Below, piece after piece: positions 11,280 to 62,061 of a DNA stretch of 64,000 bases. The position numbers and the translations under genes were made by a program. The notes beneath the pieces were generated by a model. That model did not search any database. It saw only the letters and a list, made by a program, of their open reading frames with translations, and was not told the DNA's origin. Positions within the stretch are counted from its first letter, which is position 1. Every line of letters starts with the position of its first letter. Source of the stretch: Deltaproteobacteria bacterium (GTDB taxonomy: Bacteria; Desulfobacterota; Binatia; HRBIN30; JACQVA1); the NCBI GenBank assembly GCA_016178705.1, contig JACOST010000013.1:62001-126000 (forward strand), in the 5' to 3' direction.

Positions 11280-11298
11280 ATTGGAGAAGGAGGGGAGC

Positions 11299-11601
11299 AT
11301 GAGACACACACTCGCCGCAATCACCGTCGGACTGATTGGCATGGGAACCAGTTGGGCTGCTGACGCGCCCGAGGTCTACACCAAGAAGTGCCAGGCCTGC
11401 CACAGCATCGCCGGCGTCGCCGGCCCGATGGTGAAGATGGGTGGCCCGCTCGACAGCGTCGGAACCAAGCGCGACGAAGCGTGGCTGCGTGCCTATTTCA
11501 AAGATCCGAAGTCGAAGATTCCGGAATCGAAGATGCCCAAGCTCACGCTGTCGGACGCTGAGTGGAACGCCGTGGTCGCCTACATGCTGACACTGAAGTA
11601 G
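11299..11601 (+). CDS. Monohaem class I cytochrome c
   Basis: The ATG at 11299 follows GAAGGAGGGG. The 100-residue precursor has a signal peptide cut after TSWA (about residue 20). One haem site is visible, C31QACH35, and Met79 in ESKMPKL is a good distal ligand. Size and layout are those of small soluble class I c-type cytochromes. It is periplasmic and probably shuttles single electrons between the multihaem partners. It starts 19 bases after the cupredoxin-like gene and 22 bases before the collagen-stalked cytochrome, in the same operon. Confidence 0.9.
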
Positions 11602-11623: not shown

Positions 11624-14557
11624 ATGAACGTCCATCGGTACTGGGGTGTGAACCTCCTCATCGCTACCTGCAGCCTGTATGCGGTCGTCACGCTCAGCGG
11701 GTGCAAGGGCGACGATGGGGCAACTGGTGCTACGGGACAACAAGGTCAGCCAGGGCAGCAAGGCGCTCCCGGAACGCCGGGGCCGCAAGGTTCACCAGGA
11801 CCACAAGGTTCACCAGGAGCACAAGGTTCGCCGGGACCACAAGGACCTCCGGGTTCACCAGGCGCGCAAGGTTCACCAGGACCGCAGGGCTCACCCGGTC
11901 CACAAGGAGAACCTGGGCCACAAGGCTCGCCTGGTCCGCAGGGCTCACCTGGTCCACAAGGTCCTCCAGGGACACCGGGCACCCAGGGTCCTCCGGGTGA
12001 GCAAGGTCCGCCGGGGACGAGCCAAGGCACCGTCAGCGGTCGGATCACCAATAGTCTCACTCACGGTGGCGTCGCCGGTGCATCGGTGACGTTCAGCCCG
12101 GCCGTCTCCGGTGCCAACATCTCGACCGGAGATGACGGCAGCTACTCAGTGCAGTTGCCGATCGGCGCATACACAATCACCGTCACCAAGACGAACTACA
12201 CGTCAAAGACAACAACGGTTTCCGTGGTCGCGGGTACGAGCGCGACGGTTGACGTGGTACTGGTTCCGACCGCGCCGGTGGTGCTGAACACTTCGATGCA
12301 GGGGCAAGCACGGCCGGGCAGCACACTGACGGCTTCAGTGACCGTGACGCCGCTTGATGGATCGACCGTGCAGACGATCGCGTGGTCGCAAAACAACGGC
12401 GTCACCGTGACCCTCGGCACACCAACCGCCGCCACTACAACGGTGGAGGTACCCGGCAACGGTACGTTCAAGGACGAGTTGCTCCGGATCGTCGGCCAAG
12501 CCCAACTCGATCGGTTCGTGGTGCAAGGTCTCAACCCCTTCCAAGTGGATGAGGGCGGGCTGATCACGTTGACCGCGACCGTGACCACCTCGTCGGGTAC
12601 GTACAAACAGCAAACGCAGATTCACACCGTACTGCTCTGGGAGCCCAATCCAGGGCTTCTGAACGTACCGATCGGAGTGCCGGTATTGTTGAATGGAAAG
12701 AATCTCGGCACGGACGCGATCTACGATTGGAACTTGGCACCGCCTGCGGGTTCTAGCGCGACCTTGGCCGATCCCGCGTCGCGCAATCCGTACTTCACGC
12801 CGGACGTTGCCGGTGTCTTCACCGTGCAGGTAACAGACAAGGCAATGAGTCCAGCGGCGCCGGTTACGCTCCAAATCAGTGCGGGCAAATGGCAAGGCGC
12901 GATCACCGGCCAAGACGCCGACGGCCGTCCACTCGCGGACGCGTGCACTGTGTGCCACAAGGCCGGCGGCATCGCGCCCGACATATTCCCCGAGTGGGCG
13001 CATTCCGGACACGCGGAGATCTTCACCAACAACTTCAACACACCGGGGCACTACACCACCGACTGTCTGACCTGCCACTCCGTCGGCTGGAATCCCAATG
13101 CCACCAACGGTGGAATCGACGACGCGCTGGGTTACCCGAACTTCCTCACTCAGTTCACTTCCAACGGCACCGACTTTGTGAGTAAGCCGGGCAACTGGAC
13201 GAAGTTGTTGGCCACCATCCCCGATGTGGCCAAGCTCGCCAACGTCCAGTGCGAGAACTGCCACGGACCGAACGGGACAACGTTGCACTTCAACGGCCAA
13301 GTGGATGCGGCGCGCGTGAGCCTGTCCGCCGATGTGTGCGCGGTCTGTCACGGCGAACCCGCGCGACACGCCCGCTTCCAGCAATGGCAGGATAGTGGCC
13401 ACTCGAACTATTCGCTCGCGCTCGATGAAGCGACGGTCGAAAACCGCGGCGCCACCGCGGGCCACTGCGGGCGTTGCCATTCGGCGCAGGGATTCCTCGA
13501 GTGGATCGATCAGGGAGACCTGACCAAAGTGATTCAAGGCGCCAACGGCAATGCCACCGTGCCCGAGCTCACCGCGCTGGGGCTGACGGAGAACACCGTC
13601 CATCCGCAGACCTGCACGACCTGCCACGATCCGCACGCGGAAGGCACGACCTCGGGCAAGCCGAACAACGCGACGGTTCGCATCATGGATAACACCTCGC
13701 TGCTACCGGCTGGCTTTGCCGCCTTGGGTGTCGGCCGCGGCGCCATTTGCATCACCTGCCACAACACGCGTAATGGTGCGCACAACGACGAGGTCGGCAA
13801 ACCGACGAACTACACGGCCCCACACACGCCAGCGCAAGGCGACGTCCTCATGGGACAGAACGCCTACTTCGTGCCCATCGGTGTCCGTTCACCACACTCC
13901 TTCATCAAGGACACCTGCACGACCTGCCACATGGAGCTCACTCCACCGCCGGCGGAGTTCAGCTTCAGCGGCGCGGGCACGAATCACACCTTCACGCCGA
14001 GCTTGACGATCTGCGTGCAGTGCCACGGTGTCTTCGATGGTGGCACGCTACAGGAGAGCGCGGAGCTGGAGATCAAGGCCTTGGCCGCCACTATGTCGAA
14101 GTACCTGCTGGCGAAGATCACAGCGGCAGGGACGATCTTCATTCAGGATTACACGCCGCACACGCTCAACGGCGTCACCTACGATCTGAAGAGCGGAAAA
14201 GTACAGGTTGCGGCCAGCAACGTCGACGCGGTCGTCGAACCGACTGAGCCGCACGGGCAGCAGGGGTTCGTCGTGAAGTTCAAGAGTCTCGTGAACTTCA
14301 CCTACAGCCCACCGGGGCAGACTTCACACACACTCAGCCTCACGCAAGCCGCGGTGCAGCTCGGTGACTTCACGACCGATGGAACGACCAAGGTGATCCC
14401 CGCGGACAACGTGCTGGTTCGAGCCGGCTGGAACTACTTCCTCATCCACGGCGACAACAGCAAGGGGGTCCACAATCCTTCGTTCACCTTCGGATCGCTC
14501 TCGGCCGCCAAAGCCGCACTCGAAGACGCGCTGGAAGTGGAGGTACCGCCAATCTGA
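11624..14557 (+). CDS. Nine-haem lipoprotein cytochrome with collagen-like stalk
   Basis: This 977-residue lipoprotein has its lipobox LSGC at Cys27. Residues 32-133 are 34 uninterrupted Gly-X-Y triplets rich in Pro and Gln, a collagen-like triple-helix-forming tract. A carboxypeptidase-regulatory-like domain follows (about 136-212), then Ig-like beta-sandwich regions (about 215-430). Nine CXXCH haem sites lie between about 440 and 805: CTVCH, CLTCH, CENCH, CAVCH, CGRCH, CTTCH, CITCH, CTTCH and CVQCH. The last 170 residues have no haem motif. The arrangement suggests a trimeric stalk that holds a multihaem head away from the membrane, probably on the cell surface. The next gene encodes an outer-membrane barrel. 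I know no characterised cytochrome with this architecture; trimerisation and surface exposure are inferred. Confidence 0.85.
11717..12022 (+). repeat. Collagen-like Gly-X-Y coding repeat
   Basis: Thirty-four consecutive 9-base units encode Gly-X-Y. At the DNA level the commonest units read like ggttcaccaggaccacaa. The tract is purine-poor on one strand and opens false reading frames on both strands. Copy number is likely variable between strains, as for other bacterial collagen-like tracts. Confidence 0.9.
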
Positions 14558-14594: not shown

Positions 14595-15920
14595 GTGTCG
14601 CGGAGTCGATCGTGGACTGCTCTCCTGTGTGTGTACACCGCTACGCTGCTCTTGGCGGGGTCCGTGCGCGCGCAGGAACTATCCGGCAATCTCGCCTTGC
14701 TCGGACAAGTTCGTGATGGCGACCAGACCCGTCGCACCGAGGTGCCGGTCGATCTCTACAGCAACCTCAGCGTGACCGGCTTGCGTCACGGCACTCGATT
14801 CGATTCGTTCGCCCGGCTGGAGCAAGACTTCGGCATCGATCAGGGCGCTTCTGATTTCTACGAAGGCGCGCTGCGCGTGCCGGGCGCGATCCCCGGTATC
14901 GACATGACCGTCGGGCGCCAGTTCTTGAGCGAGGGGCCAACCGGAGTGTACGTTGCCGACGCCGGCAAGGTGCGCATCGACCGCGGCTGGCCGGTGTCTT
15001 TCACGCTGTTTGGCGGTGCGCCGCGCTACTTCGAGCCGACTTACTCCACCAACATCATTTCACAAGAAGAAGCGATCTGGGGGGGCAGCGTCCGCGTCGC
15101 GCAGTGGAAGAGCACGCAGTTGTCGCTTGGGTACTTCGGGCAGGCGCGCGAAGATCACGTGTTGCGTCACCTCGTCACCAGCACGGCCAGCCGCGTCTTC
15201 ACCGAGTTGCCCGGCGTGCCCAGGTTCTACGGATCGATGGCCTACGATGTCGATCATTGGAACTTCGACGAGGGCACGGGCGGTTTCGATGTCTTCTGGA
15301 CGCCGCGTCTCAAGTTCAACGTCGAGGGCACGTACTACAAGCCGCAGGACCACGAGCACACCGTGCCGAACAGCAACCTCAACCGACGCGAAGACGCGCT
15401 CTTCGAGGTGTTCGCGGCCAGCGCCCTCACCCAGTGGCGTGCCGGGATCTCGCACACGCTCACCGCGACGCTGTCGCACTTCGTCGACTACTCGTTCCAA
15501 CACTACGATCACATCGAGAGCACGCAAATCGAGAACTCGCACATCGCCAGCTCCGGCCTGGTATGGCTCCCCGGTGGCGATGGGCTCGAAACCGTGCGCG
15601 TCCAGTACTATGTCATCAGCAGCGATGCGGGTAACGTCAACGGCGGCAAGATCTCCTACCAAAGCCGCGTGTACCAAGACCTCTGGTTGCGATCGATGTT
15701 CGACGCGACGGGCTACGACAAGGAGCGCAATCAGTCAGGGACGGCGCTCAGCGGACTACTCGGCGTCGGCTTCGTCATCCTGCCCGGCCTCACGAGCGAG
15801 GTGAACTTCGAAGGCATCCACAACAACCGCTTCGCCGAGGAGTTCCGCTTCGGATTCTTCATCACCTACAACTTCCGCCACAGTCTGAAGCGCGGGGAGC
15901 AGAAAGGAGCGGCCTCGTGA
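14595..15920 (+). CDS. Outer-membrane beta-barrel, possible porin of a porin-cytochrome conduit
   Basis: The GTG at 14595 is preferred (GAGGGGGG five bases upstream) over an in-frame GTG at 14580. The roughly 441-residue product has a signal peptide ending VRAQE. The rest is made of alternating beta-strands with aromatic girdles, such as GTRFDSFARLEQDF, LSLGYFGQA, TATLSHFVDYSF and FRFGFFITYNF. It has no CXXCH and no named domain. It lies between a nine-haem lipoprotein and a seven-haem lipoprotein. This is the gene order expected of porin-cytochrome complexes, in which a barrel insulates a haem wire through the outer membrane. Sequence similarity to MtrB or OmbB is not evident by eye, so this role is inferred from context. 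Confidence 0.65.
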   Translation: MSRSRSWTALLCVYTATLLLAGSVRAQELSGNLALLGQVRDGDQTRRTEVPVDLYSNLSVTGLRHGTRFDSFARLEQDFGIDQGASDFYEGALRVPGAIPGIDMTVGRQFLSEGPTGVYVADAGKVRIDRGWPVSFTLFGGAPRYFEPTYSTNIISQEEAIWGGSVRVAQWKSTQLSLGYFGQAREDHVLRHLVTSTASRVFTELPGVPRFYGSMAYDVDHWNFDEGTGGFDVFWTPRLKFNVEGTYYKPQDHEHTVPNSNLNRREDALFEVFAASALTQWRAGISHTLTATLSHFVDYSFQHYDHIESTQIENSHIASSGLVWLPGGDGLETVRVQYYVISSDAGNVNGGKISYQSRVYQDLWLRSMFDATGYDKERNQSGTALSGLLGVGFVILPGLTSEVNFEGIHNNRFAEEFRFGFFITYNFRHSLKRGEQKGAAS

Positions 15921-16555
15921 CGCGGCGTCTGACGGTTTGCCTGCTAGCGCCGCTCGCGGCCGGATTCTTCGTGGCGGCTTGCCGGCAATATTTGCCATCG
16001 AATCGGTTGCTGCAGAAGCGCGCCAGCCCGGCCGCTCCGTCCACGGCCGACGCGCGCAACAAGTTCGATCACGCTCGCCACACTAAAGCGCTAACCAAGG
16101 CGCAGGTGACCTGTGCCGACTGCCATCGCTTCGATGCGCTGGTCGACAGTGGCAGTGAGCCGCTCGCCCGCGAGTTGTCGGCGCACGCGCAGTACCCTGG
16201 CAGCGGCGCATGCCATTTCTGCCATGGCCCGAGCGAGACGCGGAACCCGGCCGCCCCTGACACGTGCACCAGCTGTCATCAAAACCTGGCGGCGCTCCGG
16301 CCCGCCGATCACGATGTGGCCTGGGAGCGCGTGCATGGACGGGCCGCACAGGTGAACTCGGCGCCGTGCGAAACCTGTCACCGACAAGCCGAGTGCATCG
16401 ATTGCCACGAGCGCCGCGACACCATTCAGATGCGCATGCACGATCGGAATTTCCGTTCTTTCCACGGCATCGAGGCCACCGCCAATCCGATGCGCTGCAG
16501 CAGTTGCCATCGCGAGGATTTCTGCATCCGCTGCCACGAGCGGGGACAGTCATGA
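15917..16555 (+). CDS. Seven-haem cytochrome c lipoprotein
   Basis: The GTG start overlaps the stop of the barrel gene by four bases. The 212-residue product has a lipoprotein-type signal ending AAC. Seven CXXCH sites follow: CADCH, CHFCH, CTSCH, CETCH, CIDCH, CSSCH and CIRCH. About one haem site per 25 residues is the density of c7/c3-like multihaem electron carriers. Haem attachment requires the periplasm. The lipid anchor and the tight coupling to the barrel suggest it is the cytochrome that plugs or docks on the barrel. Its last codons overlap the next gene by four bases. Confidence 0.85.
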   Translation: MTRRLTVCLLAPLAAGFFVAACRQYLPSNRLLQKRASPAAPSTADARNKFDHARHTKALTKAQVTCADCHRFDALVDSGSEPLARELSAHAQYPGSGACHFCHGPSETRNPAAPDTCTSCHQNLAALRPADHDVAWERVHGRAAQVNSAPCETCHRQAECIDCHERRDTIQMRMHDRNFRSFHGIEATANPMRCSSCHREDFCIRCHERGQS

Positions 16556-17130
16556 ATTGGGCTCAACTCAGACATTGGCTAGTTCCTTCGCGGCAGCTTG
16601 GCACAACAGAGGCCCTCGATGCGTTCGCTCCGCGAACTACTCGGGCAAACGGGTTTTGCAATCGCGTGACAAGCAAACCGCTTCCCCGAGTAGCCGCACT
16701 GAGTAGAAGCCGAAGGCTTCGTATCGAAGGGCGGTGTATCGAGGGGCTACTCCGCATACGAGAGTCTTTGCATTTGAATCAGCGGCAACCTCGGGTGGTC
16801 CAGCCATGGCTGGTCGCGCTCACCGCCGCGGCGATCACCGGCTGCGGAAACTCTGGCGCTATGCAAGGCGAGAACTACGGCAACCTGCTCGACTCGCCGG
16901 CCGGTCTCGTCGTGGTTCAGGAAGAGCATCCGACGGGCTGGGGGCGCCCCGACTGCTTTGCCTGCCACAACATCATGGACATTCACACCGTCAACCGCAC
17001 CGGGTTGCCGACGTGCAGCGCGACGATCACGCAGGATTGCCTCAACCTGTCGGAGATCCAAGCCATCGTCAGCAGCCAGCTCGAATCGAGCTGCGTCATG
17101 TGTCACGGCAACAACGGAGTGAATCAGTGA
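16552..17130 (+). CDS. Dihaem lipoprotein with repeat-expanded N-terminus
   Basis: The ATG at 16552 overlaps the previous stop (ATGA) and gives 192 residues. Codons about 21-68 are a palindromic repeat read in frame, followed by a normal lipoprotein signal (VVQPWLVALTAAAITGC). Translation may therefore start later, at TTG 16774 or GTG 16795. The mature part carries two haem sites, CFACH and CVMCH, spaced by about 45 residues, in a small domain with no family I can name. Without the repeat the protein would be about 112 residues. It ends one base into the start codon of the four-haem gene. A periplasmic or outer-membrane electron carrier is likely. Confidence 0.7.
   Translation: MNWAQLRHWLVPSRQLGTTEALDAFAPRTTRANGFCNRVTSKPLPRVAALSRSRRLRIEGRCIEGLLRIRESLHLNQRQPRVVQPWLVALTAAAITGCGNSGAMQGENYGNLLDSPAGLVVVQEEHPTGWGRPDCFACHNIMDIHTVNRTGLPTCSATITQDCLNLSEIQAIVSSQLESSCVMCHGNNGVNQ
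16613..16754. repeat. Palindromic intergenic-type repeat inside a coding region
   Basis: The left arm beginning CCCTCGATGCG...CTACTCGGGCAAACGG (from 16613) is partly mirrored by CCCGAGTAG...TATCGAAGGG and TATCGAGGGGCTACTCC to the right. This is the common CCCTCGATACG/CTACTCGGG type of proteobacterial repeat. It normally lies between genes; here it is read through in frame ahead of a lipoprotein signal peptide. The exact borders are uncertain. Confidence 0.6.
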
Positions 17131-17699
17131 TGCGCATCGGCGTGTTGTGGCTTCTCTGTTCGTTGAGCGTCGCGGCGGTCGCCGGCGCCGGCGAGGATGC
17201 GGCGAGCCCGCATCACATGATTGGGCCCGATGGCCAGGCCGAGATGGAAAAGTGCAGCCTCTGTCACAACGAAGACCTGTCGCTGCAGCGTTCGAAGGTC
17301 GAGACCTGTACGCTCTGCCATCCGATCACCGTGCACAGCGGCGCCAACGAACACTTGCGAGCCGATGCGGCCGCGGTCGCCAAGCGGGTACCCGCACCGA
17401 AGGAAGGTGAGACCGCATTGCCGCTCACCGAGGACGGGCGGATCTACTGCGGCACGTGCCACGTCTTCCACGATCCGGCGATCAGCCAGGAAACAACCGT
17501 ACCCAGCGCCTGGGTGCCGGCGCCGAGTGGTCTGCCAGAGTCGGTTCGCGGCTCGATCACCAAGCGTTGGGAGGCGGCCGCCGCAGCGCGCGGCGAATCC
17601 CGTGTCGACGCGAAGTTCACCAGCCAGGGGACGCAGCGGCTGCGCTTGCCGGTGGACGACGGCAGTCTCTGCCGTCATTGCCACGAGTATTCGAAATGA
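17130..17699 (+). CDS. Four-haem periplasmic cytochrome c
   Basis: The ATG at 17130 overlaps the preceding stop by one base. The 189-residue precursor has a signal peptide (MRIGVLWLLCSLSVAAVAGAG). The haem sites are CSLCH, CTLCH, CGTCH and CRHCH. The first two are close together, the third follows a 75-residue gap and the fourth is near the C-terminus, so this is not a canonical c3 fold. It is soluble and probably periplasmic. The last codons overlap the next gene by three bases, so it is strictly co-translated with the ethylbenzene-dehydrogenase-like fusion. Confidence 0.85.
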   Translation: MRIGVLWLLCSLSVAAVAGAGEDAASPHHMIGPDGQAEMEKCSLCHNEDLSLQRSKVETCTLCHPITVHSGANEHLRADAAAVAKRVPAPKEGETALPLTEDGRIYCGTCHVFHDPAISQETTVPSAWVPAPSGLPESVRGSITKRWEAAAAARGESRVDAKFTSQGTQRLRLPVDDGSLCRHCHEYSK

Positions 17700-19807
17700 G
17701 CGTTCGACCATTCACGATCGCCGCCGCACTGTGCGCGTTGCTCGCCGTCGGCTGCGGCGATGTCGGCGCGCCGCAGTACAGTGGGGGACCGTCAGCGGGT
17801 GCCGCGGCGTACGGCCAATGCGCGCTCTGTCACGTTGCGTTGGCGGATCACATGGCCGGCACCGGCGGCCACGAGAGTCTCAACCTCAAATGTGAAACCT
17901 GCCACGCGAATCTCGAACCCGGCGAATTCGGTCCGGGCCATCGCAGCATCCCCGCCTGTGCCGATTGTCACAGCGTCGAACACACGCATCACGACCCCGC
18001 GGCGGGGACGGCGCAGCAGTGCCAGGTCTGTCACGCGCCGCATGGCAGCGACAACATCAAGCTCATCCGCGAATTGATTCAGACAACGACGGGCCCTATT
18101 CGGCCGGTCACGTTCACAAGCGAAAACGGAGTAGGCAACGGGGGCTTTGCCAGTGCGAGCAACCCAGGCAGCGGCGTATGCGAAATCTGCCACACGACGA
18201 CACGCTTCTACCGCGCGGACGGCATCGACCAGCCGCACTTCACCCTGCCCTGCATCACCTGCCACACCCACGCCAGCGGCTTCGCGACTCCATTGGCTCC
18301 TGCGACGCAAACGCCGACCACTACGCGCACAGCGACGCGTACCAGAACCTTCACACCGACGAGCACTGCAACCGAGACCCCGACCGTGACACCGAGTTTC
18401 ACTGAATCGCCCACGCCCACTGAAACCGCGAGTCCGACGCCGACCGGCCCCAGTCCGACTCCGAGCGCAACACCGACCGGACCGAGCCCGACACCGACCA
18501 ACACGCCAACCGCGACCACCACGCCGACACCCAGCGCCACGCCGAGCCCAACCGCAAGCAACACGCCGATCGTCTTGCGGGCGGTGCGTGTCAGCGCAGC
18601 GCCGTCTGGCATCGACGACCCGCTCTGGGACGGCGTGCCCCCCTTGCGCCCGAATCTCGAAAACGTTTCGACGCAACTGCTCTATGGCGACGGTCAGCTC
18701 AACATGACTCAGACCTACAACGGCGTGAGCGAGTTCAATGGCGGAGACCCGGCCGGCCTTGATCTGCGAGCCGTGCATGACGGCACCACGATCTACATCT
18801 TGGCGCAATGGAACGATGCGACCTTCAACGTCGATCGGCGGCGCTGGTTGTTCAACGGCCCCGGCGACCCGCTCAAGCCAAGTGAGTCGGCGATCGGATG
18901 GACGTCGCAGAAGAACGAAGACCGCATCGCGTTCGCCTTCGAGATCACGCCGGCGCAAAGCGAGTTCGGCACCTTCGCGCAGGTTGGTTGTGCCGCCTCC
19001 TGCCACAACACCGCCGCGGTAGGCGGACCTGATATGCGTCCGGCATCAGGCGCGGTGGACATGTGGCACTGGAAGACCGCGCGCTCCGAGCCCTTGGGGT
19101 ACGTGGACGATCAGCTATCCACCGCCGACCAGGGTCTCGCGGATGATGCCGGTACGCCGATCGAGAACCGCAACGGTGCCGCAGCGGACAACAACCGTTC
19201 CGGGCCGGCGACCGAATGGGACGGTACCACGCAAGCGCTCACGCGCTGGGACGGCCAAATGATCGCCCTCGATCCCGCCTACTTCATCCTCGAAGGTCAT
19301 CGCCGGCCGTTCACGGGCGATGCCGCCGCGGGGGATGTGGTGTACCAGGCGAACTGCGCGCTGTGTCACGGCAGCAAGGGCGAAGGCGGGATTGGGCCGG
19401 CCTTCACCGACATCGCCATCACGCGCATCCCACCCGCTGAACTGTACGCCGACAGCGCCGCTCCGGCGCATCCAGGCGCAAGCATCTTCAACAGCCTGAG
19501 CGCGCAACAGCAGACCGATGTGCTGGCGCGAGTCCGCGGCTTCGCCGGCGTGCCGGGGTACTTCCTCACTCCTCCCAGTGGCAGCGTCGCGGACGTGCGA
19601 ACGCAATCAGACGTGAGCGTCAACCTGATCACCAACACCGATCGAACGCAGTATCGGCTGCTGACGATTCGCCCGCTCAACACCGGCCACGACGACGATA
19701 CGCAGTTCACGCCGGGCAGCCAGTATCCGTTCGGTGTAGCGCTGATGGACGATGACGGGCGCAACCACATCGGCTCCAAGAAAGAAACCCTGGCGTTGGA
19801 TCCGTGA
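17696..19807 (+). CDS. Multihaem lipoprotein fused to ethylbenzene-dehydrogenase-like haem domain
   Basis: The ATG at 17696 gives 703 residues with lipobox AVGC. Residues about 41-192 hold six CXXCH sites (CALCH, CETCH, CADCH, CQVCH, CEICH, CITCH). A Thr-Pro stalk spans about 202-292. From about 295 the protein resembles the haem-b-binding gamma subunit domain of ethylbenzene and dimethylsulfide dehydrogenases (IDDPLWDGVPPL, LDLRAVHDGTTIYILAQWND, DRIAFAFEI). Within it sit an unusual CX3CH site (CAASCH, about 431) and an inserted class I-like cytochrome c segment with CALCH near 554. The rest of the domain resumes at the end. Known relatives accept electrons from type II molybdoenzymes. No molybdoenzyme is encoded nearby, so the donor or acceptor here is unknown. 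The next gene overlaps by four bases. Confidence 0.8.
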   Translation: MSVRPFTIAAALCALLAVGCGDVGAPQYSGGPSAGAAAYGQCALCHVALADHMAGTGGHESLNLKCETCHANLEPGEFGPGHRSIPACADCHSVEHTHHDPAAGTAQQCQVCHAPHGSDNIKLIRELIQTTTGPIRPVTFTSENGVGNGGFASASNPGSGVCEICHTTTRFYRADGIDQPHFTLPCITCHTHASGFATPLAPATQTPTTTRTATRTRTFTPTSTATETPTVTPSFTESPTPTETASPTPTGPSPTPSATPTGPSPTPTNTPTATTTPTPSATPSPTASNTPIVLRAVRVSAAPSGIDDPLWDGVPPLRPNLENVSTQLLYGDGQLNMTQTYNGVSEFNGGDPAGLDLRAVHDGTTIYILAQWNDATFNVDRRRWLFNGPGDPLKPSESAIGWTSQKNEDRIAFAFEITPAQSEFGTFAQVGCAASCHNTAAVGGPDMRPASGAVDMWHWKTARSEPLGYVDDQLSTADQGLADDAGTPIENRNGAAADNNRSGPATEWDGTTQALTRWDGQMIALDPAYFILEGHRRPFTGDAAAGDVVYQANCALCHGSKGEGGIGPAFTDIAITRIPPAELYADSAAPAHPGASIFNSLSAQQQTDVLARVRGFAGVPGYFLTPPSGSVADVRTQSDVSVNLITNTDRTQYRLLTIRPLNTGHDDDTQFTPGSQYPFGVALMDDDGRNHIGSKKETLALDP

Positions 19808-21327
19808 GAGCGTGTGCGGCGATGCGATTGCCCCCATCCGTTCACAACCGAGTCAGCTATCTCGGCGCTGCGCTCGCCGCACTCGAAGTCCTGCTGTTTG
19901 TCTTCTTGCTGGTGCTGGATGCCGTGAGCGGCGCGGAGCGCGCCCCGTACGCCGGGCTCGTCATCTATGTCGTCATCCCCGCGCTCCTGTTGCTTGGCTT
20001 GGTTCTCATTCCGATTGGAATGTTCTTCGAATGGCGGCGCGTGCGGCACACCGGCAGACGCTCGGTGGTCCGCTTTCCGATCGTCGATCTGAACCAGGCG
20101 GCGCAGCGCAACGCATTGCTGATTTTCTCCGGCGGCTCGATTCTCCTGCTCTTCTGCTCCGCATTTGGCAGCTTCCAAGCCTACGAAGCCACCGAGTCGG
20201 TGGCGTTCTGCGGCACGCTCTGCCACTCGGCGATGTCACCGGAGTTCACGACCTACCAGCACTCGCCGCACGCCCGCGTGCGGTGCGTCGATTGCCACGT
20301 CGGCCCCGGCGCCGATTGGTACCTGAAGGCGAAGCTGACCGGCCTCCATCAACTCTACGCGGTGGCTTTCGACAAGTACCCGCGTCCGATTCCAGCACCG
20401 ATTGCGAGCTTGCGACCCGCGCAGGACACCTGTGAACAGTGCCACTGGCCGAAGCAATTCTTCAGTTCGAAAGGCAGACGACTGACTTACTTCTTGCCCG
20501 ACGAGTCGAACTCGCGCTGGGAAGTGAATCTCCTCGTCAAAATTGGCGGCGGCAGCCGCATTGGCGGACAAGGCGAGGGGATCCATTGGCACATGAACCT
20601 CTCTAACCGAGTCGAATACATCGCCACCGACGAGCGACGACAAGAGATTCCCTGGGTGCGGATTACCGATTCGAAGACCGGCCACCAAACCGTCTACACG
20701 TCCACAGAGAAGCCGCTCGCGGATACGGAGGTCGCAGCCGCAACCTTGCACCGAATGGATTGCATGGACTGTCACAACCGGCCCGCACACCACTACCGCT
20801 CGCCGGCACAGGCGCTTAACCTGGCACTTGCCGGCGGCACCATCGATTCCACCCTGCCCTTCATCAAGAAAACCGGCGTGGAGCTCTTAGCGGCGACGTA
20901 CGACTCGACCGAGGCCGCTATGACAGGGATCGAGCAGGGGCTCGCAAAATTCTACCGAGAAAAATACCCCGAGCTACTCGCAACACGACGTGAGCTGATA
21001 AGCGGCGCGGCCACCGAGCTACAGCATTTGTATCGCGACAACGTTTTCCCGCAGATGAAGGCGCGCTGGGACGCGTATCCCGACAACGTCGGGCATCTGA
21101 TCTTCTCTGGTTGCTTCCGCTGCCACGATGGCCAGCATCAGAGCGCCGACGGCAAGGTGCTCAGTAAGGACTGCGCCACGTGTCACACGATCACCGCACA
21201 GGGAAAACCGCAGGCGATGGCGTTCGCGGAGGATCTGAAAGGTCTGACCTTTGAACATCCCGAGGACATCGGCGGGGCATGGCAGGAGATGAAGTGCGCC
21301 GACTGCCACACCGGCCAGGCACCGTAG
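19804..21327 (+). CDS. NapC/NirT-like membrane-anchored multihaem quinol dehydrogenase
   Basis: The GTG at 19804 overlaps the previous stop. Three N-terminal membrane helices (about 17-43, 51-77, 101-118) lead into a periplasmic multihaem domain of 507 residues in total. Haem sites are CGTLCH (a CX3CH variant at the membrane-proximal position), CVDCH, CEQCH, CMDCH, CFRCH, CATCH and CADCH. NapC/NirT/NrfH relatives oxidise membrane quinol at a haem next to the membrane, and the first, unusual site sits where that haem would be. It is larger than typical NapC and has extra helices. In this operon it is a candidate quinone/cytochrome interface, alongside the Rieske/cytochrome b pair. Confidence 0.85.
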   Translation: MRACAAMRLPPSVHNRVSYLGAALAALEVLLFVFLLVLDAVSGAERAPYAGLVIYVVIPALLLLGLVLIPIGMFFEWRRVRHTGRRSVVRFPIVDLNQAAQRNALLIFSGGSILLLFCSAFGSFQAYEATESVAFCGTLCHSAMSPEFTTYQHSPHARVRCVDCHVGPGADWYLKAKLTGLHQLYAVAFDKYPRPIPAPIASLRPAQDTCEQCHWPKQFFSSKGRRLTYFLPDESNSRWEVNLLVKIGGGSRIGGQGEGIHWHMNLSNRVEYIATDERRQEIPWVRITDSKTGHQTVYTSTEKPLADTEVAAATLHRMDCMDCHNRPAHHYRSPAQALNLALAGGTIDSTLPFIKKTGVELLAATYDSTEAAMTGIEQGLAKFYREKYPELLATRRELISGAATELQHLYRDNVFPQMKARWDAYPDNVGHLIFSGCFRCHDGQHQSADGKVLSKDCATCHTITAQGKPQAMAFAEDLKGLTFEHPEDIGGAWQEMKCADCHTGQAP

Positions 21328-21372
21328 ACTCAGCGCTTGGCGTCGAGACGCAGGTGACGAAGGAGTCGATTG

Positions 21373-21825
21373 ATGGATAGCGAACTCGATCGCGGAGAGC
21401 TCTCGCGGCGCAACCTGCTCGATCTCCTGCTCTCCGGGAGCCTGTTGTCATTCGCCGCCGCCGTGTTCTATCCGGTGTTGCGCTACATCACGCCGCCGCC
21501 GGTGAGCGAAGTGACCACCACGAGCGTGGTGGCCGCCAAGGTATCCGAGATCGCGCCCAACACGGGCAAAGTCTTCCGCTTCGGATCGCGGCCGGGGATT
21601 CTGGTTCAAACGGCGAGCGGCGAATGGCGCGCGTTCAGCGCGGTGTGTACTCACCTCCAGTGCACGGTCCAGTACCGGGCCGATTTGGAACACATCTGGT
21701 GCGCTTGCCACAACGGACACTTTGACCTGAGCGGAAAGAATGTCGCCGGGCCGCCACCGCGGCCACTGGATCAGTTCAACGCCACCGTGAAGGGAGACGA
21801 GGTTATTGTCACCCTCAAGACGTAG
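21373..21825 (+). CDS. Rieske 2Fe-2S protein of a bc-type complex
   Basis: The ATG at 21373 follows AAGGAG. The 150-residue protein has an N-terminal membrane anchor (about 15-37) preceded by SRRN, a twin-arginine-like start seen in Rieske proteins. Box I is C92THLQC97 and box II is C110ACHNGH. Cluster ligands are Cys92, His94, Cys110 and His113; Cys97 and Cys112 can form the usual disulfide. Box I has Gln where the common motif has Gly, which may shift potential. The gene overlaps the cytochrome b gene by about 20 bases, so the two are made together. Confidence 0.9.
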   Translation: MDSELDRGELSRRNLLDLLLSGSLLSFAAAVFYPVLRYITPPPVSEVTTTSVVAAKVSEIAPNTGKVFRFGSRPGILVQTASGEWRAFSAVCTHLQCTVQYRADLEHIWCACHNGHFDLSGKNVAGPPPRPLDQFNATVKGDEVIVTLKT

Positions 21826-22891
21826 CCCGCAACGCCCGCTCGTTGCGTGGTTCGACGAACGCCTCGGCCTCAGCGCGGCGCTCGACTTCCTGCGCCAGAA
21901 GACGGTGCCCCATCATCGCTCGTCGGTCTGGTACTACTTCGGCGGGGTCAGCCTGTTCCTGTTCGGCGTTCAGGTCGCGACCGGCCTATTGCTCCTGATC
22001 TACTACAAGCCCACGCCCGAGGCCGGTTTCGAGAGCGTGCGCTTCATCGTCGCACAGGTGCCGTTCGGTTGGTTGATCCGCTCGCTCCACAGTTGGTCGG
22101 CGAATCTGATGGTGCTGACCGTCTTCGTCCACCTCTTCAGCGTCTACTTCATGAAGGCGTATCGCCCACCGCGCGAGCTGACGTGGCTGACTGGGTTTGG
22201 ACTGCTCGGTCTGACGTTGGCCTTTGGCTTCTCCGGTTATCTCCTCCCGTGGAACGAGTTGGCGCTCTTCGCCACCAAGGTCGGTACCGATATCGTCGGC
22301 TCCGTTCCCGCGGTCGGGCACGTATTGTTGCGCTACGTGCGGGGCGGTGACGAGGTGAGCGGTGCCACGCTCACGCGTTTCTTCGGCTGGCATGTGGCGC
22401 TGCTGCCGGCGCTATTCACGGGTCTATTGGGCGTGCACCTGTTGCTCGTGCAGCGGCTTGGCATGAGCGCGCCCTTGCGGCCAACGGCGGAAACGCGCGG
22501 GATGCCGTTCTTCCCCGGCTTCATCATTCGCGATGCGATCTTGTGGCTCGGCGTACTCGGAGTGTTGTTATCGCTGTGCACATTCATGCCATGGGAGCTG
22601 GGTGTAAAGGCGGACCCCTTCGCATCGGCGCCGGCAGGCATTCGACCCGAGTGGTACTTCACGTTCCTGTCGCAGTCACTCAAGTACATCCCCAGCAACG
22701 TCCTCGGAATCGATGGTGAGGTGGTCGGCATCACGGCGTCCGGGCTCGGCGGTCTGTTCTTCTTGTTGGTTCCGTTTCTCGACCGCCGCGCGGCCCGCGG
22801 CCAATCGAGTCCGCTGTTCACTGCAATCGGCGTCCTGGTGTTGCTGTACATGGCCACGATGACGGCGCTCGCATACCTGAAGCCGTACTGA
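21806..22891 (+). CDS. Cytochrome b (b6/bc1 type)
   Basis: The TTG at 21806, with GAGACGAGG upstream, gives 361 residues. Eight membrane helices are visible. Two haem-b His pairs lie in HSWSANLMVLTVFVH and HVALLPALFTGLLGVH; the second pair is spaced by 14 residues, as in cytochrome b6. The Qo-site signature PEWY occurs in RPEWYFTFL. The N-terminal b6-like half and the C-terminal subunit IV-like half are fused in one chain. With the Rieske protein it forms the core of a quinol-oxidising complex. No cytochrome c1 or f gene is present; the adjacent nine-haem cytochrome probably takes that place. Confidence 0.9.
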   Translation: MSPSRRSPQRPLVAWFDERLGLSAALDFLRQKTVPHHRSSVWYYFGGVSLFLFGVQVATGLLLLIYYKPTPEAGFESVRFIVAQVPFGWLIRSLHSWSANLMVLTVFVHLFSVYFMKAYRPPRELTWLTGFGLLGLTLAFGFSGYLLPWNELALFATKVGTDIVGSVPAVGHVLLRYVRGGDEVSGATLTRFFGWHVALLPALFTGLLGVHLLLVQRLGMSAPLRPTAETRGMPFFPGFIIRDAILWLGVLGVLLSLCTFMPWELGVKADPFASAPAGIRPEWYFTFLSQSLKYIPSNVLGIDGEVVGITASGLGGLFFLLVPFLDRRAARGQSSPLFTAIGVLVLLYMATMTALAYLKPY

Positions 22892-22904
22892 AGGGGGCAT
22901 GGTG

Positions 22905-24161
22905 ATGCGACGAATCACAACGGTCCTCGCCCTCCTCACCGTTGTCGCAGGCGTCGCGCGAGCGGAGGAGAAGGTCGATTTGTGCGTGGCCTGTCATGCC
23001 GTATTGCCGGAGCAACTCGGCGCCCCGGTCGCGGGCATGCAGCAAGACGTGCACGCCCAATACGGCTTTTCGTGCGCTGACTGTCACGGTGGAGATCCCA
23101 GCGACATGGACCTCGCCGCGATGGCCCCCGAACGTGGCTTTCGCGGCAAGCCAACCCCGGGAGACGTGCCCAATCTGTGCGGGCGTTGCCACAGCGACGC
23201 TGAATTCATGCGGCGTTACAATCCAGCGCTGCCGACCAATCAACGCGAACGTTACTGGACCAGCGTGCACGGCAAACGACTCGCTGCGGGCGACACCAAA
23301 GTCGCCACCTGCACCAGTTGCCACGGCGTGCATGGCATCAAAGCCGGCCGGCAAGCGGACTCACCGGTCTATCGCGCCAACGTGCCGTCGACGTGTGGCC
23401 ACTGCCACTCGAAGCCAGACTACATGGCGGGCTACGACATCCCCACGGACCAAGAAGAGCGCTATCGCCGCAGCGTGCACGGCGAGCTGTTACTGCACAA
23501 GCGCGATTTGTCGGCGCCGACCTGCACCACCTGCCACGACAACCACGGCGCCTCGCCGCCGGGGCTCACTTCGATCGCCGAAGTCTGCGGCCAGTGCCAC
23601 GTGAACAACAGTACGTTCTTCATCGCGAGCCCTCACAAGCCCGCCTTCGATCAATTGCAATTGCCCGAGTGCGTGACCTGTCACAGCAATCATGAGGTGC
23701 GCCGGACCAGCGACGCCATGCTCGGCGTGACCGACGACGCGCTCTGCAGCCAATGCCACGCGAGCGACTCGAAAGGATACGTCGCCGCTCGGGACATGAG
23801 ACAGACGATCGATCACTTGAAGGATGCGATGCAGACGGCTGATGCGACGTTGCACCACGCCGAGGAACTCGGGATGGAGGTCGGCGACGCACGCTACGAG
23901 TTCCACAATACCGGCGCGCTGCTCATTCAAGCGCGCACCAGCATCCACCGTTTTTCGGCGCCCTATGTGCAAGAAGTCGCCGCCCCGGGTTTCGAGCTGG
24001 CCCAGCGCACTGAGCGCATCGCGGCGGCCGCCGCCGCTGAAGCCCAATCGCGCCGGCGCCATCTGCTCGCGCCCTTGGCGATTCTCGGCGCGTTGATGAT
24101 CCTGCTCGCGGTGAAGCTGCGCCGCATCGAGAAGGGAACCAACGGCAATACCCCGCGGTAG
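22905..24161 (+). CDS. Nine-haem membrane-anchored cytochrome c
   Basis: The ATG at 22905 is chosen because AAGGGGG lies seven bases upstream; an in-frame ATG at 22899 is too close to it. The protein of about 418 residues has a signal peptide ending ARA and nine CXXCH sites: CVACH, CADCH, CGRCH, CTSCH, CGHCH, CTTCH, CGQCH, CVTCH and CSQCH. A helical stretch without haems follows, then a C-terminal membrane helix (HLLAPLAILGALMILLAVK) with a basic tail. It follows the cytochrome b gene by 13 bases. Both its position and its anchor fit the electron acceptor of the bc complex, replacing cytochrome c1. It is the last gene of the operon. Confidence 0.85.
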   Translation: MRRITTVLALLTVVAGVARAEEKVDLCVACHAVLPEQLGAPVAGMQQDVHAQYGFSCADCHGGDPSDMDLAAMAPERGFRGKPTPGDVPNLCGRCHSDAEFMRRYNPALPTNQRERYWTSVHGKRLAAGDTKVATCTSCHGVHGIKAGRQADSPVYRANVPSTCGHCHSKPDYMAGYDIPTDQEERYRRSVHGELLLHKRDLSAPTCTTCHDNHGASPPGLTSIAEVCGQCHVNNSTFFIASPHKPAFDQLQLPECVTCHSNHEVRRTSDAMLGVTDDALCSQCHASDSKGYVAARDMRQTIDHLKDAMQTADATLHHAEELGMEVGDARYEFHNTGALLIQARTSIHRFSAPYVQEVAAPGFELAQRTERIAAAAAAEAQSRRRHLLAPLAILGALMILLAVKLRRIEKGTNGNTPR

Positions 24162-61922: not shown

Positions 61923-61998
61923 GCGTCGACTGTATGGACTCGGGCGAGCTTTCGCAATCGACGTTGCGCGTGACGCCCTGTCGTTCATTCAGCACTCT

Positions 61999-62061
61999 GC
62001 ATTCCGCACTCCCCATTCCCCATTCCCCATTCCCCATTCCGCATTCCGCATTCCGCATTCC
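61999..62061. repeat. 7-bp tandem repeat (CATTCCC/CATTCCG)
   Basis: A run of 7-base units, first CATTCCC-type and then CATTCCG-type, lies upstream of the divergent monooxygenase-like gene and the small unknown gene. Such GGAATG-like arrays are common, length-variable intergenic repeats. It could change spacing between the two promoters. Confidence 0.8.

Follow-up and report, generated by a model that had tools for sequence, protein, structure and literature searches.

The 64,000-nucleotide stretch of DNA analysed here (the window) contains a gene for a lipoprotein in which a lipobox is followed by an unbroken Gly-X-Y tract, a transthyretin-like domain, Ig-like regions and a head with nine CXXCH haem motifs, and genes for a barrel and several multihaem proteins lie directly downstream (Table 1). 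This protein is probably the outer-surface cytochrome of a porin-cytochrome conduit, with a nonahaem head of the OcwA/NrfA type that would be held off the outer membrane on the Gly-X-Y stalk and the Ig-like spacers. All nine CXXCH motifs start within residues 441–797, and the head also comprises long C-terminal helices and a beta insert.

Table 1. Features of the nonahaem lipoprotein and of the surrounding gene cluster, in window positions
Feature	Position	Strand	Basis
Collagen-stalked nonahaem lipoprotein, whole gene, 977 aa	11624..14557	+	ORF and domain search
Signal peptide with lipobox LSGC, Cys27	11624..11704	+	Sequence
35 Gly-X-Y triplets, residues 29-133	11708..12022	+	Sequence, Pfam, codon count
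Transthyretin-like / CarboxypepD_reg domain, residues 137-213	12032..12262	+	Pfam and model
Ig-like regions, residues about 217-421	12272..12886	+	Model; supportive
OcwA/NrfA-type nonahaem head, residues 422-977	12887..14554	+	Motifs, profile, model
Monohaem cytochrome c, directly upstream	11281..11601	+	Domain search
Outer-membrane barrel, about 22 strands, 446 aa	14580..15920	+	Model, conservation
Seven-haem cytochrome, lipobox-like N-terminus by eye	15917..16555	+	Motifs, conservation
Two-CXXCH protein, conserved cluster	16552..17130	+	Conservation
Four-haem cytochrome, conserved cluster	17130..17699	+	Conservation, domain search
Seven-CXXCH protein, Pro/Thr-rich linker, ethylbenzene-dehydrogenase-type domain	17696..19807	+	Conservation, domain search
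NrfH/NapC-like six-haem membrane cytochrome, putative quinol link	19804..21327	+	Domain search
Rieske protein and cytochrome b	21370..22891	+	Domain search
Nine-CXXCH cytochrome	22899..24161	+	Motifs, domain search

The original prediction of a lipobox followed by a perfect Gly-X-Y run, and of nine CXXCH sites in one chain, was borne out by the sequence; the run comprises 35 triplets after Cys27, or 34 without the final GTS. Starting with Gly26 of the lipobox, which shares the register of the tract, and up to residue 133, every third residue is a glycine, which gives 36 in one register with zero breaks. The Collagen model PF01391 matched with an E-value of 3.1e-17 and a score of 62.5 bits (cut-off 27.2), which places the tract far beyond chance. 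The X and Y residues are variable, and the underlying DNA is made of diverged repeats of 18, 45, 54 and 63 bp with 69–82% matches. The 36 glycine codons were GGT (14), GGA (8), GGG (7) and GGC (7), with GG invariant and the third base free, and all four GGN codons were also used in nine of eleven other stalks of relatives, the remaining two using three. Since the runs were defined by glycine, the informative point is this freedom of the third base and not the retention of glycine itself. The tract looks to be under selection for glycine, and an origin by chance or as a repeat artefact was rejected on its glycine codon use. An antisense ORF with a Gly-rich pattern (11746–12060) was put down to the repeat of the tract as read on the opposite strand.

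The physical reason for a glycine at every third residue is the triple helix. Hence, the retention of 36 of 36 glycines while all four GGN codons occur favours this fold, and we lean towards reading the stalk as a collagen triple helix. If wholly folded, the 35 triplets would be 30 nm long, as computed with the rise of 0.286 nm per residue of the collagen helix. No trimerisation domain was identified in the protein, which counts against a trimer, and runs as short as the 5–8 triplets of some relatives would hardly form stable helices.

The carboxypeptidase-regulatory-like domain that had been predicted after the stalk remained below the Pfam cut-off (28.4 bits against 32.2 for the CarboxypepD_reg-like model), yet it was recovered in an AlphaFold model of residues 137–977 (24-sequence input, pLDDT 81, pTM 0.68), where residues 137–213 matched carboxypeptidase transthyretin-like domains with Z scores of 13.1–14.9 and rmsd of 1.1–1.5 over 77–78 residues (Z 14.8 for 5aq0). 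The Ig-like regions of the same prediction were also matched by Ig-like chains in the model, mostly with Z below 9, and their assignment is to be taken as supportive. Misassembly of the gene is unlikely because its downstream neighbours are conserved in relatives; in G001, a genome of the same family, the barrel and the seven-haem protein are 66% and 69% identical to those of the window, respectively. A promoter scan returned 0 sites (shuffles averaged 0.8).

As judged by profile and model, the head is of the OcwA/NrfA type and not of the MtrC/OmcA type. A profile built from 32 heads (31 relatives plus the window sequence) matched OcwA with an E-value of 1.4e-21, the multihaem cytochrome 6qvm with 1.4e-17 and NrfA with 7.7e-14, and octahaem nitrite reductases were also among its relatives. 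The alignment to OcwA covered the haem-free C-terminal motif DGS-G-HN, and a narrower head profile matched OcwA with 3.2e-6. A single-sequence search with the window protein did not find OcwA and returned only eight-haem nitrite reductases, with E-values of 0.05–0.06. VIA-align superposed the model (range 286–831) on OcwA 6i5b with Z 14.0 and rmsd 4.0 over 332 residues at 23% identity, a score that mostly helical models may reach without kinship according to the warning of the tool, so the profile outweighs the model as evidence. The long C-terminal helices of the head model span residues 671–699, 794–808 and 816–837. Ig-like and other beta proteins fill the 50 Foldseek matches listed for the head model, so that this list speaks neither for nor against a cytochrome, and OcwA surfaced with VIA-align. 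OcwA has open (high-spin) sites at haems 2 and 5; the head model contains no haems, and ten histidines outside the CXXCH motifs were conserved at 86% or more in the 24-sequence alignment.

An MtrC/OmcA-type head had been suggested by PF22113 (MtrC/MtrF domain II/IV), which the window protein matched with 46.9 bits against a cut-off of 30. This match is not specific, since the nine-CXXCH neighbour at 22899 also passes the cut-off. The TIGR03507 model (OmcA/MtrC) gave no row for the window protein at E-values up to 1, and nine haem motifs were counted against ten in the OmcA/MtrC family. This candidate was rejected on the absent TIGR03507 match together with the matches to OcwA.

The number of triplets, whose conservation among relatives had been put forward as a check, is not conserved. 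From 127 relatives 80 were kept, and a 36-row tree was built with 33 of the 80 loci, to which the window and two second copies were added. A run of at least six in-register glycines was present in 12 of the 20 readable members of the clade of the head (6, 6, 6, 8, 8, 10, 17, 19, 19, 19, 20 and, in the window, 36) and absent in the other eight, with five of the 25 clade rows (L021, L022, L026, L028 and L030) left out of the count for a truncated, unclear or masked N-terminus. At least three stalk changes are needed on the tree for the 20 readable rows. L021, which with a head 69% identical is the closest relative, is among the rows left out, and of two heads 59% identical to that of the window one lacks the tract (L024) and the other has a run of 3 (L029). 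Close homologues without the tract, named beforehand as evidence against the proposal, were thus found in part. The N-termini of L037 and L041 were read by eye as dockerin-like.

Stalks of the same kind were also found on a second head family. Among 30 OmcA/MtrC-family decahaems from 148 genomes of the class, six carry them, with runs of 44, 43, 32, 18, 16 and 12 glycines (two in G001, one in G008, two in G014 and one in G098); five were over the TIGR03507 cut-off also when scanned as proteins and the sixth, of G098, by genome search. The N-terminus of one of the 30, from G135, was left out of the reading for its broken frame. Pro/Thr-rich or dockerin-like stretches, as read by eye, occupy the position of the stalk in decahaems. 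The stalk is, to go by these counts, a modular part of variable length, and it resembles a lengthened version of a linker present in a classic surface cytochrome, as Shewanella MtrF starts with five triplets. The claim that no characterised cytochrome has this plan is weakened by MtrF and by the six decahaems of the class.

In the 36-row tree the window pair had a support of 93/95, no starred set of at most half of the rows held this pair, and long branches were flagged. The nearest relatives by tree path after CTSoil_040 belong to Chloroflexota, and transfer of the head from this phylum is possible, in view also of the mere three genomes of the class in which the nonahaem family was found. 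Several relatives showed arrangements of their own. L057:9770-11098, from Chloroflexi, has a stalk of 8 glycines in register and, close behind it, no more than five CXXCH motifs, and may be either a stalk on the second half of a head or an assembly fault. Tandem pairs of collagen-stalked nonahaem genes occur in two Myxococcota-labelled genomes (L036:3351-9820 and L039:8720-15441). In L029, L030, L041 and L057 the nonahaem gene is preceded at a short distance by an NrfH-like gene and the barrel of the window is unmatched, which may represent another electron route to this type of head. Beside the 44-triplet decahaem of G001, the locus L101:2152-7057 contains what by eye are genes for molybdopterin oxidoreductase-like, iron-sulfur and NrfD-like subunits.

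The nonahaem stop codon and the start of the barrel gene are separated by 22 bp. The product of the barrel gene is a predicted outer-membrane barrel, modelled with 22 strands (pLDDT 78) and with matches to other such barrels, and the seven-CXXCH gene that follows is kept beside the barrel in relatives and encodes a putative periplasmic partner. Further downstream, the protein encoded at 17696–19807 matched PF09459 with an E-value of 1.8e-24, an unusual fusion of haem motifs and an ethylbenzene-dehydrogenase-type domain within a conduit cluster. Elsewhere in the window (61986–62061) a 7-bp tandem repeat (CATTCCC-like) is present in about nine copies.

The barrel was found in 15 of the 148 genomes of the class, its own included (E up to 1e-10). 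An OmcA/MtrC-family decahaem lies directly upstream of it in eight of the 14 others (G004, G005, G006, G007, G008, G010, G012 and G014); a small gene stands between the two in G146, the decahaem is located elsewhere in the stretch fetched in G019 and G102 (whose contig begins at the barrel), and none was seen within the stretch fetched around the barrel in G001, G103 and G112. The genome of the window has zero OmcA/MtrC-family decahaems over the TIGR03507 cut-off. The nonahaem family was found in three of the 148 genomes (E up to 1e-20), namely that of the window (G000), G014, where it lies on a short contig of its own, and G100, which is not one of the 15 genomes with the barrel. The simplest reading of this distribution is that the outer head of a porin-cytochrome conduit was swapped in the lineage of the window. 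Such an exchange cannot be dated, because in the same-family genome G001 the contig carries no cytochrome gene ahead of the barrel.

The nine decahaems that precede a barrel have no Gly-X-Y run of four or more, and the five collagen-stalked decahaems of G001, G008 and G014 had no barrel match in the stretch fetched. Stalk and conduit thus coincide in the window only, and this counts against the conduit reading given above. Alternatively, the protein could work by itself at the surface as an enzyme of the NrfA/OcwA type, for instance in reducing nitrite or hydroxylamine, and neighbour the conduit by chance. This would agree with the nitrite reductases among the profile relatives and with OcwA itself, for which slow reduction of nitrite and activity on hydroxylamine are described (PMC6703420). 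Such a role is nevertheless improbable, since the barrel gene is only 22 bp away and the nonahaem gene occupies the slot held in relatives by an OmcA/MtrC-family decahaem. Even less credit can be given to the tract as part of an adhesin that binds a surface or matrix, with the haems secondary. The tract has matches to the SclA, SclB and Lcl models that fall far short of the cut-offs, and the collagen-bearing extracellular part of Bucl8 is described as binding fibrinogen in the portion of the report available (PMC7682875). However, the matches to SclA, SclB and Lcl mirror the Gly-X-Y repetition alone, and the tract is membrane-proximal with nine haem motifs beyond it.

If the protein is the outer cytochrome of the conduit, electrons would pass between the quinol side (the NrfH-like protein and the Rieske/cytochrome b pair) and the nonahaem head by way of the seven-haem protein inside the barrel. 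The head would be exposed at the surface, contact the seven-haem partner and exchange electrons in either direction with something outside. The stalk would be a length-tunable spacer that reaches past surface polysaccharide, and its variable length points to a spacer or tether and not to a precise ruler. Electron tunnelling between haems has a range of about 1–2 nm, so a stiff upright rod of 30 nm would leave the head out of reach of the barrel; the stalk may bend, lie flat or partly unfold for docking, or extracellular carriers may bridge the gap. A flexible single-chain tether on which the head swings between barrel and partner, with Gly-X-Y tracts exchangeable for other low-complexity linkers (Pro/Thr-rich or dockerin-like), would avoid this difficulty of direct transfer, and would also suit the range from none to 36 in-register glycines within one clade, the other stretches read by eye at the same place in decahaems, and an MtrF with merely five triplets. 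We consider it less likely, because a tether does not need a glycine at every third residue, yet none of the 36 has been lost while the third base of their codons varies freely. A folded triple helix would make three heads share one stalk. The resulting scaffold, with three OcwA-type heads (27 haems, as first proposed) on a stalk of ~30 nm, three lipids anchored beside the conduit and a length tuned by repeats, in a class where stalks occur on two cytochrome families, is put forward tentatively, its chances being somewhat below even. Trimers exist among octahaem relatives, e.g. HAO and MccA, although no description of an MccA homotrimer was found in the open-licence literature. OcwA forms a mixture of monomer and dimer and is a dimer in the crystal, according to the accessible part of the report (PMC6703420), and this counts against a trimer in the window protein.

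Each part of this system is already known: bacterial surface proteins may carry collagen-like tracts, and both OcwA-type nonahaems and porin-cytochrome conduits have been described; the collagen-like proteins of Burkholderia and the multihaem cytochromes of Binatota have been treated in the literature. In open-licence papers no description was found of a cytochrome with a collagen tract, of a porin-cytochrome conduit in Binatia, or of these parts in combination and of such stalks on two head families. One important question is how surface cytochromes get past polysaccharide to their electron partner. A stalk with countable repeats that is present or absent among close relatives puts distance within reach of experiment. 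That an OcwA-type head has apparently taken the place of an MtrC-type one on a conserved conduit suggests a replaceable outer unit, and ties the OcwA-type surface reductase to the porin-cytochrome system.

Long Gly-X-Y tracts with a variable number of repeats, as in the window, are found on the surface proteins Bucl8, SclA/SclB and Lcl, which have no haem and serve in efflux or adhesion, whereas the window protein has nine haem motifs. The tract of Bucl8, an outer-membrane protein, comprises 6–38 repeats and, when produced recombinantly, folds into a triple helix, as stated in the accessible part of the report (PMC7682875). PgcA of Geobacter sulfurreducens is a lipid-attached extracellular cytochrome with 29 PTX repeats and no unusual structure by CD, to judge from the part of the source available (PMC5732950). 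Its three haems lie among the repeats, in contrast to the window protein, in which the Gly-X-Y stalk is placed ahead of the haems.

The cluster of the window shares with MtrCAB and OmcA-MtrC-MtrF the plan of an outer multihaem lipoprotein, a barrel and a periplasmic multihaem protein. The five triplets of Shewanella MtrF (3pmq chain) are GSD GDD GSP GEP GKP at residues 26–40, and the stalk of the window is seven times longer; members of the OmcA/MtrC family have ten haems, whereas the head of the window has nine and no TIGR03507 match over the cut-off. The stalked decahaems of the class have the same order of lipobox, 12–44 in-register glycines and multihaem head, but their head family is unrelated to the nonahaem head. 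OcwA is a nine-haem surface terminal reductase of a Gram-positive bacterium, with NrfA, c554 and MccA as kin (PMC6703420), and has been placed in a nonahaem subclade otherwise of Gram-negative bacteria (PMC7829351), both as given in the accessible parts of these reports. OcwA of Thermincola potens (6i5b) has nine haems like the head of the window, and its PDB chain starts about 17 residues before the first matched CXXCH, with neither stalk nor Ig-like part, whereas the window protein has both. OcwA also differs in having no barrel partner known to us and in its Gram-positive host.
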